A DNA stretch of 64,000 nucleotides, taken from NCBI GenBank assembly GCA_902532525.1, contig CACAIK010000002.1:62001-126000 (forward strand). The letters run 5' to 3'. Positions 24,197 through 29,642 of this stretch are shown piece by piece (positions within the stretch are counted from its first letter, which is position 1; every line of letters starts with the position of its first letter). Source of the DNA: an uncultured Pelagibacteraceae bacterium (lineage in GTDB: Bacteria > Pseudomonadota > Alphaproteobacteria > Pelagibacterales > Pelagibacteraceae). The notes below the pieces were generated by a model that worked only from the letters and a program-made list of their open reading frames with translations, searched no databases and had not been told where the DNA came from. The translations under genes were made by a program, and so were the position numbers.

Positions 24197-24772
24197 ATGA
24201 ATGACTATTTGCAATCAATTATTGATAGGGATCCAGCGGCAAGATCTAAGTTAAGTGTAATATTAACGTACCCTGGCGTTAAGGCTGTATTTTTTCACAG
24301 AATTGCAAATTTTTTTGCTACTGCAAAATTCGATCTTATCGCAAGAATAATTTCTCAATTTTCAAGATTTTTAACTGGTATTGAAATTCATCCAAGAGCT
24401 AAAATAGGTAAAAATTTATTTATTGATCACGGTATGGGCGTTGTTATAGGTGAAACATCTGACATTGCAGATAACGTAACAATTTATCATATGGTTACTT
24501 TAGGTGGAATATCTCCAAGCATAAATTCCAATGATCAAAGAGAAATTAAAAGACACCCTACTCTTCATGATAATGTTGTTGTTGGTTCAGGGGCACAAAT
24601 TTTGGGGCCTGTAGTTGTAGGGAAAAATGCAAGAATTGGTGCTAATGCAGTTGTAACAAAAAATGTTCCTGAAAATGCTGTTATGGTAGGAATACCTGCT
24701 AAGAATGTTGGAACAGCAACTGAAGAATTTAAACCTTATGCTGTTACAAATGGCAATGAGGAAAAAGAATAA
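24197..24772 (+). CDS. cysE: Serine O-acetyltransferase
   Basis: Hexapeptide repeats, [30 protein letters not shown]. Confidence 0.9.
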
Positions 24773-25773
24773 TGAAAAATTACAAGGATGATTTTATCCA
24801 ATCAATTGGAAATACTCCTTTAATAAAACTGAAAGCTGCATCTGAAATAACTGGCTGTAACATTTATGGTAAAGCCGAATATTTAAATCCAGGAGGATCT
24901 GTAAAAGACAGAGCAGCACTTGCTTTAATAAGGGATGCTGAACAAAAAAAATTGATATCTAAAGGTGGAATAATTGTAGAAGGAACTGCAGGAAACACTG
25001 GCATTGGTTTATGCCTTATTGGAAATTCACTTGGTTACAAAACGATTATTGTAATGAATGATAATCAAACTCAAGAAAAAAAAGATACATTAAGAAATAT
25101 TGGTGCAGAATTAAAATTAGTTCCACCAAAACCTTATAAAGATGAAAATAACTTTGTTAAAGTTGCTGCTAGAATGGCTGAAGACCTAAAAAGTTCAAAT
25201 AATCACGGAGTTGTTTGGGCAAATCAATTTGATAATACAGCAAACTCAAAAGGTCACTATAATACAACGGGTCCTGAGATATGGGAACAAACTGAAGGTA
25301 AAGTTGATGGATTTGTATGTTCTTCTGGAACTGGGGGAACAATTGGTGGAGTAAGTAGTTTTTTAAAAGAAAAAAATAAAGATATAAAAATTTATCTATC
25401 AGATCCAAAGGGATCCTCTCTTTACAATCACATTGAAAACGGTGAGTTAAAAGCTGAAGGTGGATCAATAACTGAAGGCATTGGATCCAGCAGAGTAACT
25501 GCTAATTTTGCAGAAGCAAAAATAGATGGAGCCTTTTCAATTGAAGATAAAGAGTCTTTGCCAATACTATATGATTTAATCAAAAATGAAGGTTTAAGTC
25601 TTGGAACAAGTTGTGGAGTAAATATTGCAGGCGCAATAAGATTGGGTAAAAAATTAGGACCAGGAAAAACTATTGTCACTATTCTTTGCGACAAATCAGA
25701 CAGATACAACTCAAAGATGTTTAATAAACCTTTTTTAATTGAAAAAGGTTTACCTTATCCCGATTGGATATAA
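24772..25773 (+). CDS. cysK: Cysteine synthase
   Basis: IGNTPLIKL, LNPGGSVKDRAAL PLP lysine, GTAGNTGIGL. Confidence 0.9.
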   Translation: MKNYKDDFIQSIGNTPLIKLKAASEITGCNIYGKAEYLNPGGSVKDRAALALIRDAEQKKLISKGGIIVEGTAGNTGIGLCLIGNSLGYKTIIVMNDNQTQEKKDTLRNIGAELKLVPPKPYKDENNFVKVAARMAEDLKSSNNHGVVWANQFDNTANSKGHYNTTGPEIWEQTEGKVDGFVCSSGTGGTIGGVSSFLKEKNKDIKIYLSDPKGSSLYNHIENGELKAEGGSITEGIGSSRVTANFAEAKIDGAFSIEDKESLPILYDLIKNEGLSLGTSCGVNIAGAIRLGKKLGPGKTIVTILCDKSDRYNSKMFNKPFLIEKGLPYPDWI

Positions 25774-25789
25774 TAACGCATATCAGCAC

Positions 25790-25812
25790 TGTAATAAAAC
25801 CATTACATTTTT
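25790..25812 (+). terminator. Weak candidate terminator after cysK
   Basis: TGTAAT-AAAACC-ATTACA followed by TTTTT; short AT-rich stem. Confidence 0.35.
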
Positions 25813-25855
25813 AATTTACAATAAATAATAATAATTAAAAAATTAAGGAAATTTT

Positions 25856-26230
25856 ATGGACGCAAAAGAAGTAGTTAAAAAAGGATATGAACTTTTTGGC
25901 AAAGGAGATATGGAGGGATTTATGGAAATGGTACATGATGATATCACTTGGATTTATCCTGGGGATAAGCATCCAATGTCAGGAACTCATAAAGGCAAAG
26001 AGGCATATATGAAAACCATGATGCAAGTTCCAAATCTTTGGAGTAATTTTTCAGTAACCCCTGATATGATGATTAGTGAGGGGAATAAAGTGTTTGTTAA
26101 AGCAACTGCTAAGGCAGATGGCATGGATACTATTTTTGGTCATTATTTTGAAGTAGGCGATGATGGTAAACTGACATTATTTATTGCGTTTGATGACACA
26201 CTAAGCATGTTCAATGCAATTAAGAAGTAA
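25856..26230 (+). CDS. SnoaL/NTF2-like small protein
   Basis: YELFGKGDMEGFMEMVHDDITWIYPGDKHPMSGTHKGKEAYMKTM. Confidence 0.8.
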   Translation: MDAKEVVKKGYELFGKGDMEGFMEMVHDDITWIYPGDKHPMSGTHKGKEAYMKTMMQVPNLWSNFSVTPDMMISEGNKVFVKATAKADGMDTIFGHYFEVGDDGKLTLFIAFDDTLSMFNAIKK

Positions 26231-26236
26231 TAGTTT

Positions 26237-26704
26237 ATGAAAAAATTATATTTTATTTTAATTTTCGTATTTATGTCGAGTACAGCTTTTGCTGAGCAAG
26301 GACAAATTAAACAAACTGGTTTTTTCTCTGGCACTTCTAAAGTTATAGGTGATGATAAAGGCAATTTTTCGATAATATATGAAGGAACTATTGGTAATAA
26401 AGCTATTGAGGGAACAACTTTTGGTGACAGATCTTCATCATATTGTGTTGGATCAATTGTTGGACTTAAAGGAAAAGGTTTTGAGACAGGCGTTTGTATA
26501 AACAAATTTGAAGATGGTAGTACTACAACAACACATTACGAAGGCGTAATGGGAAAAATATTAAGATGGAAGTTTGTAAGTGGAACAGGTAAATATGAGA
26601 ATATTTCTGGAGGTGGAACAACATCTTATGCGCAAATTGATTCAGCTAAAGATGGAGTTGTACAATCTTACAATCAAATCGTTGGTACTTATAATTTGAA
26701 CTAA
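26237..26704 (+). CDS. Secreted protein of unknown function
   Basis: Signal peptide MKKLYFILIFVFMSSTAFA; repeated Gly-rich beta pattern. Confidence 0.65.
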   Translation: MKKLYFILIFVFMSSTAFAEQGQIKQTGFFSGTSKVIGDDKGNFSIIYEGTIGNKAIEGTTFGDRSSSYCVGSIVGLKGKGFETGVCINKFEDGSTTTTHYEGVMGKILRWKFVSGTGKYENISGGGTTSYAQIDSAKDGVVQSYNQIVGTYNLN

Positions 26705-26717
26705 CTGAAAGAAAAAA

Positions 26718-27116
26718 ATGAAAAAAACAATTTTAGTATTAATTTTAAGTTTATTTACAGCTAATGTTTACGCAGATAGCCATGTAAAGAGAATTTTATC
26801 AACAAGTCAAACAGGAATGGGAAATGATATTGTATACCCTACAGGAAAAGCAAAAATAACAGCTTTTGAATTTACTGTACCCGTAGGAGCTCCAGTAACT
26901 CCTCATACGCACTCATTTCCAGTTCTAATTATGATTCAGCAAGGTGAAATTGAATTAATTCATGAAGGAAAAACCCAAGTATTCAAAGCTGGTGATGCAT
27001 TTGTTGAAGATGTTGGAATTGTACACGAGTCGAAAAATATTGGAAATGTTCCAGTTAAAGCGATTGTAGTTGCAATTGGTGTCGAAGGACAGAAAATTAT
27101 GACACCGGTAAAATAA
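26718..27116 (+). CDS. Secreted cupin-domain protein
   Basis: Signal peptide; GAPVTPHTHSFPVLIMIQQGEIELIHEGKTQVFKAGDAFVEDVGIVHE. Confidence 0.8.
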   Translation: MKKTILVLILSLFTANVYADSHVKRILSTSQTGMGNDIVYPTGKAKITAFEFTVPVGAPVTPHTHSFPVLIMIQQGEIELIHEGKTQVFKAGDAFVEDVGIVHESKNIGNVPVKAIVVAIGVEGQKIMTPVK

Positions 27117-27129
27117 AAAGGAAAAAGAA

Positions 27130-27420
27130 ATGATCATAAAAATAGAAGAAAATATAAAATCATTTTCATCTTGGATGAATATGGTAAAGGCGAATGCTGA
27201 AAAAATTAAAGGATTTGGTGCTACTATTATTTTTGCGGGTGTATCTAAAGAAGACCCTTCAAAATTTACTGTAATCGTTAAGTATGCAACCATGCAAGGT
27301 TTTGAAGCATTTAAAAATGACAAAGAACTTCATGCAGCAAGAGCTGAAGCAGGTGTGGATTTAGATTCAGCAAAGGTTACACCAATGCATGAAGATTTTA
27401 TGGAAAATTTTAGTGGATAA
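27130..27420 (+). CDS. Small protein, probable dimeric alpha/beta-barrel (DUF3764-like)
   Basis: 96 aa; overall pattern only. Confidence 0.55.
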   Translation: MIIKIEENIKSFSSWMNMVKANAEKIKGFGATIIFAGVSKEDPSKFTVIVKYATMQGFEAFKNDKELHAARAEAGVDLDSAKVTPMHEDFMENFSG

Positions 27421-27447
27421 ACAATTAATATAAAGAAAGGATAAATT

Positions 27448-27738
27448 ATGGAAACAGAAACATTAGTCGTAGCTCACCTTAAAGAAGGGATGCTAGAAAA
27501 GTTTATGGGCTTTATGCAATCGGATGCTGGTATGGCAGAGAGATCGAAAGTTGCAAATGTATCAAAAACAATTGGAACAGTTGCACCTGACAAAAAAACA
27601 GTAATGTTTAAAATTTTTGTGACCGATAAAGCTGCTCTAAAAGCGTTTATAGATGGAAGCAATCCAGTATCAGCTCCTGTTATGAAAGAAGTTATGGAGA
27701 GTTACAGTGTCTACGAATTAAATAAAGTAGATATGTAA
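27448..27738 (+). CDS. Small protein, probable dimeric alpha/beta-barrel (ABM/DUF3764-like)
   Basis: 96 aa; weak visible resemblance to the preceding ORF around PDKKTVMFKIFVTDKAALKAFI. Confidence 0.5.
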   Translation: METETLVVAHLKEGMLEKFMGFMQSDAGMAERSKVANVSKTIGTVAPDKKTVMFKIFVTDKAALKAFIDGSNPVSAPVMKEVMESYSVYELNKVDM

Positions 27739-27761
27739 TAATTTTTGTAATAAGGTTTGTA

Positions 27762-28052
27762 ATGCCTTCAGGATATATCATATTAAATATTAATGTGTTA
27801 AATCCTGAAAATTACAAAGAGTATTTGGAAAAAGCTCCTCCAACTGCTCAAATGTTTGGTGGAGAATACATTATAAGAGGTGGCGAAAATGAAGTCATTG
27901 AAGGTGAGTGGAAATATCCAAGAACTGTTGTAATTAAATTCCCATCTTATGAAAAAGTTTTTGAGTGGTACAATTCAGAAATATATAAACCTATCAGACA
28001 GATTAGATTAGATAATACTGTATCAAATACATTAATAATTAAAGGAGCATAA
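27762..28052 (+). CDS. DUF1330 family protein
   Basis: GYIILNINVLNPENYKEYLEKAPPTAQMFGGEYIIRGGENEVIEGEWKYPRTVVIKFPS. Confidence 0.8.
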   Translation: MPSGYIILNINVLNPENYKEYLEKAPPTAQMFGGEYIIRGGENEVIEGEWKYPRTVVIKFPSYEKVFEWYNSEIYKPIRQIRLDNTVSNTLIIKGA

Positions 28053-28064
28053 AGGAGAAAAAAA

Positions 28065-28385
28065 ATGTCAATATTAGAAAAATATAGTGCTGCAATTAAA
28101 AATAAAGATGAAGCAGCAATGAATGAACTTTTGCATGATGATTTTAAATTCACAATGCATAAATCAGGGAGTGTTTTAACTAAAAGTGATGTTATCAAAT
28201 GGGCAATGAGTGGTGACATTAAGCAAGATAAAACTAGAATTGTTTATGAAAATGATGAAGTTGGTGTTCACCATGCGTTTGTAACATTTGATGATGGTAA
28301 TGTAGAAGCAGTTATGGCAGTCTACAAATACAAAGATGGCAAAATGATTAGTTTAGAAACTGGCGCAACGCCAATGCCAAAATAA
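28065..28385 (+). CDS. SnoaL/NTF2-like small protein
   Basis: YSAAIKNKDEAAMNELLHDDFKFTMHKSGSVLTKSDVIKWA. Confidence 0.78.
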   Translation: MSILEKYSAAIKNKDEAAMNELLHDDFKFTMHKSGSVLTKSDVIKWAMSGDIKQDKTRIVYENDEVGVHHAFVTFDDGNVEAVMAVYKYKDGKMISLETGATPMPK

Positions 28386-28982
28386 GTGAACAACATAGAT
28401 TTTTATTTTTCTATTGGAAGTACTTATACTTATCTTTCGGTTACTCGAGCATTAGAAGCAGAAAAACAACATCAAATTAAGTTTAACTGGACTCCTTTTA
28501 GTGTGAGAGCAATAATGAAAGAAATGAACAATGTTCCGTTTCCTAAAGAAAAAAAAAATAAAGTAGATTACATGTGGAGGGACATAGAAAGACGAGCAAA
28601 AAATTATGGATTTTTTGCTAAAACACCAGTCCCTTACCCTTTAACAGAATTTGATTTAGCTAATAAAATTGCAATATTAGGCTTAAAAAATAACTGGGGT
28701 GTAGATTACGTTCAGCTTACGTATAAAAGATGGTTTCAAGAAGGAAAAGAGCCTGCTGTTGAACCCAACTTGAGTGAAATCTGCGAAAAACTAAACTTAG
28801 ATAAAGAAAAGATTGTTTCAGAGGCAAGCTCTGAGGAAATAAATAATATTTATTTATCAAATACAGAAAAAGCTAGAAAAAATAAAATATTTGGAAGTCC
28901 GTCATTTGTTGTAAAAAATGAAATATTCTGGGGAGATGATAGAATGGAAGATGCAATCAAATGGTCGAAGGCAAATGAATAA
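28386..28982 (+). CDS. 2-hydroxychromene-2-carboxylate isomerase / kappa-GST-like DsbA family protein
   Basis: GTG start; IDFYFSIGSTYTYLS with Ser at the active-site position, IFGSPSFVVKNEIFWGDDRMEDAI. Confidence 0.8.
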   Translation: MNNIDFYFSIGSTYTYLSVTRALEAEKQHQIKFNWTPFSVRAIMKEMNNVPFPKEKKNKVDYMWRDIERRAKNYGFFAKTPVPYPLTEFDLANKIAILGLKNNWGVDYVQLTYKRWFQEGKEPAVEPNLSEICEKLNLDKEKIVSEASSEEINNIYLSNTEKARKNKIFGSPSFVVKNEIFWGDDRMEDAIKWSKANE

Positions 28983-29310
28983 TATAACTGCTTATATAAT
29001 TTTATTAATCGCAGTAATTCTTGGAACAGCATCTAACAGTTTTGCTAAAAGTGCTCAAGGTTTTACATTATTAATACCTAGTATAATCACAGCAGTAACA
29101 ATTGTTGGATGCATGTATACTTTGTCTTTAGTTATGAAAAGTATACCAGTTGGAATAACGTATGCCTCTTTTGCGGGCCTATGTATAATTGCTACAGCTG
29201 CTGTTGGTGTTATAAAATTTAATCAAGTACCAAATTTTTATACAATAATTGGATTGATTTTAATTATATCGGGTGTCTTAATAGTTAACTTATTAGGAAC
29301 AAATAAATGA
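28975..29310 (+). CDS. SMR-like membrane protein, subunit 1, lacking the TM1 glutamate
   Basis: Four TM segments; SAQGFT, IPVGITYA, ILIISGVLIVNLLG match SMR; ATG at 28975 overlaps the upstream gene. Confidence 0.78.
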   Translation: MNNITAYIILLIAVILGTASNSFAKSAQGFTLLIPSIITAVTIVGCMYTLSLVMKSIPVGITYASFAGLCIIATAAVGVIKFNQVPNFYTIIGLILIISGVLIVNLLGTNK

Positions 29311-29642
29311 AACCATTATCTGGTTATATTTATTTAGTATTAGCTATATCAACAGGAATTGCCGCAAATAGTTTTGCTAAAATTTCAGATGGATTTTCAA
29401 AATTAACTCCAACGATATTATCAATAGCTTTTATGTGTATAACTATGTATGGACTTGCAAAAGCTATGTCTATGATACCAGTAGGTTTTACTTATGCTAC
29501 TTATAGTGGGATAACAGTGGCTGCTATTTTAGTTTTCGGAATGATTAAATATAACCAGATACCAAATATATATGGTTTAATTGGGATTTTTTTAATTATT
29601 ATTGGCGTTGTAATGGTTAATTATCTTGGAAGAATTAATTAG
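29307..29642 (+). CDS. SMR-like membrane protein, subunit 2, lacking the TM1 glutamate
   Basis: Four TM segments; ISDGFSKL, IPVGFTYATYSG, IIGVVMVNYLG; 4-nt ATGA overlap with subunit 1. Confidence 0.78.
   Translation: MKPLSGYIYLVLAISTGIAANSFAKISDGFSKLTPTILSIAFMCITMYGLAKAMSMIPVGFTYATYSGITVAAILVFGMIKYNQIPNIYGLIGIFLIIIGVVMVNYLGRIN

Follow-up and report, generated by a model that had tools for sequence, protein, structure and literature searches.

What holds together ten small genes that follow cysK on one strand of a Pelagibacteraceae contig, and what might their products do? The stretch analysed (the window) comprises 64,000 nucleotides of contig CACAIK010000002.1 (assembly GCA_902532525.1, positions 62,001 to 126,000) from an uncultured member of this SAR11 family, and the run of genes, here called the cassette, occupies positions 25856 to 29642 within it. 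We interpret the ten genes as a single transcription unit, the form taken in this genome by a modular Pelagibacteraceae operon whose inducible enzymes would act on a reactive or cyclic metabolite. Taken as a whole this interpretation has about an even chance of being correct; that the run is a unit is well supported. The evidence for a unit beyond chance is comparative, and consists of kept gene order, co-occurrence of the gene families, and a common cis element.

The ten open reading frames (ORFs) are all on the + strand, as their coordinates in the window confirm, and they are separated by gaps of 6, 13, 13, 27, 23, 12 and 0 nt and then by overlaps of 8 and 4 nt, exactly as given in a preliminary description made from the letters of the stretch. 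Such close same-strand spacing is weak evidence in SAR11, because the median intergenic spacer in HTCC1062 is only 3 nt (PMC5069961). The product names first assigned are mostly borne out by Pfam, the exception being g5, for which the DUF3764/ABM assignment fails by sequence though the predicted fold is of that class; a Pfam scan of g2 and g5 gave nothing above cut-off for either. The genes and the upstream limit of the locus are as follows, with arrangements counted as described below.

25856..26230, + strand: g1, SnoaL_2-like protein, 124 aa (Pfam SnoaL_2, 1.8e-12), in 14 of 57 arrangements
26237..26704, + strand: g2, 155 aa, with a signal-peptide-like N-terminus and a predicted beta-barrel like those of allene oxide cyclase (AOC) and dirigent proteins
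26718..27116, + strand: g3, 132 aa, with a signal-peptide-like N-terminus and a Cupin_2 domain (Pfam, 4e-12)
27130..27420, + strand: g4, DUF3764 protein, 96 aa (Pfam, 6e-6)
27448..27738, + strand: g5, 96 aa, near-constant family without a Pfam match, predicted dimeric alpha/beta-barrel
27762..28052, + strand: g6, DUF1330 protein, 96 aa (Pfam, 4e-29)
28065..28385, + strand: g7, DUF4440/SnoaL (NTF2-like) protein, 106 aa, near-constant family (Pfam, 2e-7), in 54 of 57 arrangements
28386..28982, + strand: g8, GTG start, protein like kappa glutathione S-transferase (GST) and 2-hydroxychromene-2-carboxylate (HCCA) isomerase, 198 aa (Pfam DSBA/kappa-GST, PF01323, 6e-27)
28975..29310, + strand: g9, 111 aa, with an SMR fold but lacking the central Glu (Pfam SMR, 3e-15)
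29307..29642, + strand: g10, 111 aa, with an SMR fold but lacking the central Glu (Pfam SMR, 1e-18)
24772..25773, + strand: cysK, the upstream limit of the locus, fixed in the genus; outside the cassette

A modular locus behind cysK

In the Pelagibacter-type genus, a cassette of small genes, most of them on the same strand, fills the space from cysK to the conserved gene that comes next. The loci were drawn through searches with g5 and g8, so that close relatives are over-represented, and the 111 complete loci represent about 57 distinct arrangements assembled from roughly 25 small-protein families; the exact ten-gene set of the window is the commonest arrangement (17 of the 111, with that same over-representation of close relatives). 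The g7 and SMR families are each present in 54 of the 57 arrangements and g5 in 49, and g5 is accompanied by g7 in all 49 complete cysK-linked arrangements in which it occurs, never being found without it. An arrangement usually closes with g7 and an SMR gene, and the final gene is an SMR gene in 50 of the 57. Gene order is consistent in 95% of pairwise comparisons, compared with 62% after shuffling (maximum 65%), and most families need a minimum of 6–13 state changes (gains or losses) when mapped on a 56-tip cysK tree. The families co-occur in order across the Pelagibacteraceae and are not scattered, and the preliminary description, which scattering would have refuted, stands in this respect; its picture of one coherent pathway of ten genes holds as regards the coherent unit but not the fixed set, with about three families near-constant and the others coming and going.

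The cassette is also represented beyond the genus. A g5 profile has matches in 143 of the order's 297 genomes; the 143 belong to four genera of a single family and carry one copy each, apart from one genome with two. Outside the order g5 was found in only three genomes, all in one family of the class (f32) that we take to be, probably, the HIMB59 lineage; the cassettes there are minimal (g5-g7, g5-c15-g7 and g5-c15-c11-g7), with the order unchanged. A second Pelagibacteraceae genus has a c4-g6-g5-c9-c5-c12 version at a site away from cysK. Viral contigs yielded no relatives of g5 or g7, and carriage of the cassette by phages is rejected on these grounds.

Some variants are of interest in their own right. 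Strict mutual exclusivity of g8, cupredoxin, TPR and VOC genes in the slot preceding the SMR gene nearly holds, and is broken by one locus (L299). In two genomes (loci L133 and L135, read by eye) the genes beyond the downstream end of the cassette look like photolyase-related, cryptochrome-like, SDR and ABM-like ones, and may connect it with light or oxidative stress. A Pelagibacter-like g5 is present on a contig labelled Flavobacteriaceae (L300, PATA01000017.1), likely a misbinned SAR11 contig, and a g5-matching stretch with one in-frame TAG (G009:C2:17575-17859) could reflect pseudogene formation, faulty assembly or a match that overruns the natural stop.

The conserved upstream box

The common cis element lies between cysK and g1 in the window, and its parts are as follows.

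25778..25810, + strand: conserved cis-regulatory box, with core GCATATCAG and dyad TGTAAT-AAAACC-ATTACA (25790-25807)
25817..25822, + strand: putative -10, TACAAT, at a fixed 9 nt past the dyad, with TAnAAT at the equal offset in 89 aligned leaders

A 32-bp consensus, CATAnCnGnnnTGTAAYAAAAnnnTTACATTT, is common to all canonical loci and is positioned upstream of the first cassette gene, whichever gene that is. The window copy (25779-25810) has 0 mismatches to it, where shuffles lead to an expectation of 0. The box is present in 29 of 61 genus genomes, at one site each, and in 104 of the order's 297 genomes, with essentially a single site in each (reversed control, 1 of 297); all matches in the order are in the Pelagibacter-type genus except for one weak match. 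In the 89 aligned leaders the dyad reads TGTAAY-N6-RTTACA and is followed nine bases on by TAnAAT; there is no canonical -35 among them, and a sigma-70 scan gave matches no more frequent than in shuffles.

The core GCATAnC[A/T]G extends further than the full box, being found in 57 of 72 cysK-type leaders, 29 of 31 divergent-c5-type leaders and 4 of 4 leaders of the second genus (90 of 107 family leaders overall), with 0.0017 expected per leader. The shorter form GCATAYCWG has 19 matches in the window genome, mostly intragenic, and 4 in the reversed control. We note that in a clade that includes L107, L108, L110, L136, L243 and their relatives, the membrane gene c5 is inverted beside cysK, and the cassette begins at a divergent intergenic region bearing the core GCATATCTGTCGCG. 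A second intergenic GCATATCAG, with another GCATATC close behind, is located outside the window (L332, G000:C2:137060-137068), flanked by a SufA/IscA-like gene on one side and a 54-aa ORF on the other; this site is a possible second member of the cassette regulon.

Predicted folds and the glutamate-less SMR pair

The model of g5 (pLDDT 95) has as its top PDB matches dimeric alpha/beta-barrel proteins (E 1e-4 to 1e-3), including the olivetolic acid cyclase OAC, LsrG and NIPSNAP, and with its ferredoxin-like fold g5 is predicted to belong to this class. LsrG, OAC, ABM and NIPSNAP resemble g5 by predicted fold and g4 and g6 by Pfam class, but g5 differs from these structures in having no Pfam match and an identity of ≤20%. 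With moderate confidence, g2 is predicted to be a barrel of the dirigent/AOC/PloI4 class; its marginal structure matches are dirigent proteins, the PloI4 cyclase and AOC, which it would resemble in a predicted eight-stranded barrel and a GGTGKY-type motif, although g2 departs from the AOC and dirigent barrels in being bacterial, in its signal-peptide-like N-terminus, and in a TM of ~0.55 at 8–15% identity. g8 aligns over its full length with HCCA isomerase 2imd (E 2e-15) with the active-site-type Ser in place, and by sequence is a relative of the HCCA isomerases and kappa GSTs, sharing the DSBA-like fold and having a Ser aligned with the glutathione-activating one; it differs from them in its setting, a cassette without naphthalene-degradation genes. 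The predicted structures and the 2imd match thus lend support to the early suggestion of tailoring, isomerising or cyclising types of fold, for g2, g5 and g8.

The terminal pair, g9 and g10, are members of the SMR family by fold (Pfam Multi_Drug_Res, 3e-15 and 1e-18) and by the switch Tyr60. When aligned to EmrE, all 36 distinct cassette SMR sequences have Gly at the position of E14 and Asn at that of T18, with Tyr60 kept. According to a 2022 review, the central Glu is essential in the guanidinium, drug and polyamine SMRs and is often Asn in lipid SMRs (PMC9574504). The cassette proteins therefore have the fold, switch tyrosine and gene pairing of EmrE, Gdx and ArnE/F, but differ in the Glu14 to Gly and Thr18 to Asn replacements; the lipid-type SMRs (ArnE/F) also lack the Glu, often with Asn rather than Gly in its place, and the match to the NCBIfam ArnE model is weak (17.6 bits, cut-off 92). 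Because the Glu needed for proton-coupled cation export is replaced in 36 of 36 sequences, g9 and g10 are not to be named a proton-driven exit: they are no ordinary exporter, and neither a proton-coupled exporter of the Gdx, Qac or polyamine type nor the membrane exit originally proposed is supported. Most likely the pair would be an uncoupled flippase or permease and not a proton-driven drug pump.

These features suggest a mechanism in which a regulator would bind a cis element private to the cassette (GCATAnCwG, the dyad and the -10) and turn the co-transcribed genes on or off together. Their small protein products belong to predicted fold classes that are often cofactor-independent, including dimeric alpha/beta-barrels (g4, g5 and g6), NTF2/SnoaL proteins (g1 and g7), a putatively secreted cupin (g3), a putatively secreted AOC/dirigent-like barrel (g2), and a glutathione-type isomerase relative (g8). 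From the folds we infer that these enzymes most likely render a reactive small metabolite harmless when it is present, by isomerising it, cyclising it or in some other way, the compound perhaps being an aromatic, lactone, quinone or oxylipin, and that with g5, g7 and the SMR near-constant, the swapping of other genes among strains would tune the substrate range. That this is a system of SAR11's own, with small enzymes reshuffled behind a conserved operator that a putative regulator would read, no integrase being seen at the loci, and served by an SMR subtype not recognised before, marked by Glu14 to Gly and Thr18 to Asn and not acting as a proton/cation antiporter, is a tentative proposal, with slightly less than an even chance.

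SAR11 bacteria rank with the most abundant cells on Earth and are noted for how little they switch transcription, and here there is a genus-wide operon, conserved yet rearranged, with a control site that is almost its own in each genome. The box offers a direct handle on the regulator and inducer, and hence on the compound sensed, and an SMR subfamily without the Glu would test the reach of the SMR fold without proton coupling.

Alternative explanations and chromosomal setting

The strongest rival is a replacement-type flexible island, in which a recombination hotspot after cysK gathers unrelated genes behind a conserved promoter with no common pathway; we consider this unlikely but a serious contender. 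The locus does show different content at the same site, with some 57 arrangements, as in replacement flexible genomic islands, which are a known kind in aquatic prokaryotes (PMC4033161), and both the repeated gains and losses on the cysK tree and the occasional insertion of unrelated genes are in keeping with it. It accounts poorly for the conservation of gene order, the pairing of g5 with g7 even in a distant family of the class, the occurrence of the GCATAnCwG core with cassettes at unlinked sites of a second genus, and the recurrence of a few fold classes. Several observations nonetheless count against an inducible enzyme operon. Some loci include unrelated-looking extras, such as the photolyase/cryptochrome-like set and an LldD-like oxidase, which fit a generic insertion site; the exact core is missing from 17 of the 107 family leaders, and altogether from leaders of the HIMB59-like lineage; and there is no dedicated regulator among the flanking genes examined. 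Five sequences went into the g2 model (pLDDT 78), whose structure matches are marginal, with a best E of 1.5e-4 and a TM of ~0.55. The dimeric alpha/beta-barrel, SnoaL and cupin folds occur, too, in proteins that bind ligands without being enzymes.

The 32-bp box could alternatively be a cysK terminator or RNA element (a hairpin of UGUAAY/RUUACA followed by U) and not an operator, as the dyad arms can pair into a weak hairpin with a T-run behind it, and one inner pair covaries (T-A in 42 and C-G in 29 of the 89 aligned leaders). This is less likely because folding is near that of shuffles (z ~ -1.2) and there is no Rfam match, results that also speak against a riboswitch or structured RNA leader; conservation is among the highest in the loop AAAA and in the GCATAnCwG upstream of it, and in other contexts that core is followed by different 3' sequence, so we regard this reading as improbable. 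Somewhat more doubtful still is the original idea of small natural-product biosynthesis with export: the folds are those of polyketide-type cyclases, isomerases and pericyclases, and the SMR pair is terminal, but a scaffold-building enzyme (synthase, ligase or prenyltransferase) is lacking in the window cassette and in the recurrent families, two-gene minimal forms exist, and the SMRs have lost the essential glutamate. Least probable is a cysteine or sulfur stress module tied to cysE-cysK and the persulfide-dioxygenase-like and 1-Cys peroxiredoxin neighbours. The fixed position directly behind cysK in the genus, the nearby metallo-beta-lactamase-fold protein and peroxiredoxin, and the glutathione-type family of g8 would all fit, but the cassette is preceded by a control box of its own and lies away from cysK in another genus and another order, and in HTCC1062 sulfur limitation does not induce cysK or cysE (PMC5069961).

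The inducible operon that we favor resembles the SAR11 hypervariable regions (HVR1-4) and replacement flexible islands in having a fixed chromosomal site and content that varies among close relatives, but differs in being small (2–18 genes) and same-strand, with its order kept and one conserved control box. Flexible islands are already known; what is new is a box-controlled, order-keeping cassette of small enzymes with this SMR variant. We found no paper describing the locus in the literature on SAR11 with these gene families; the searched part of the text of the SAR11 hypervariable-region paper has no mention of cysK/cysE or the cassette (PMC2217521), and a structured-RNA survey does not mention cysK or cysE.

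The window genome is 1.18 Mb in 38 contigs, and near-identical public loci are labelled as Pelagibacteraceae from single-amplified or metagenome-assembled genomes. The upstream neighbors are genes for a 1-Cys peroxiredoxin and a metallo-beta-lactamase-fold protein, then cysE and cysK; our own reading of the metallo-beta-lactamase-fold protein suggests that it is persulfide-dioxygenase-like. Downstream are an EamA permease gene and TRAP-type genes. Elsewhere in the window genome, two DUF1330 paralogues lie side by side (G000:C1:11908-12495), and they are paired in several relatives too.

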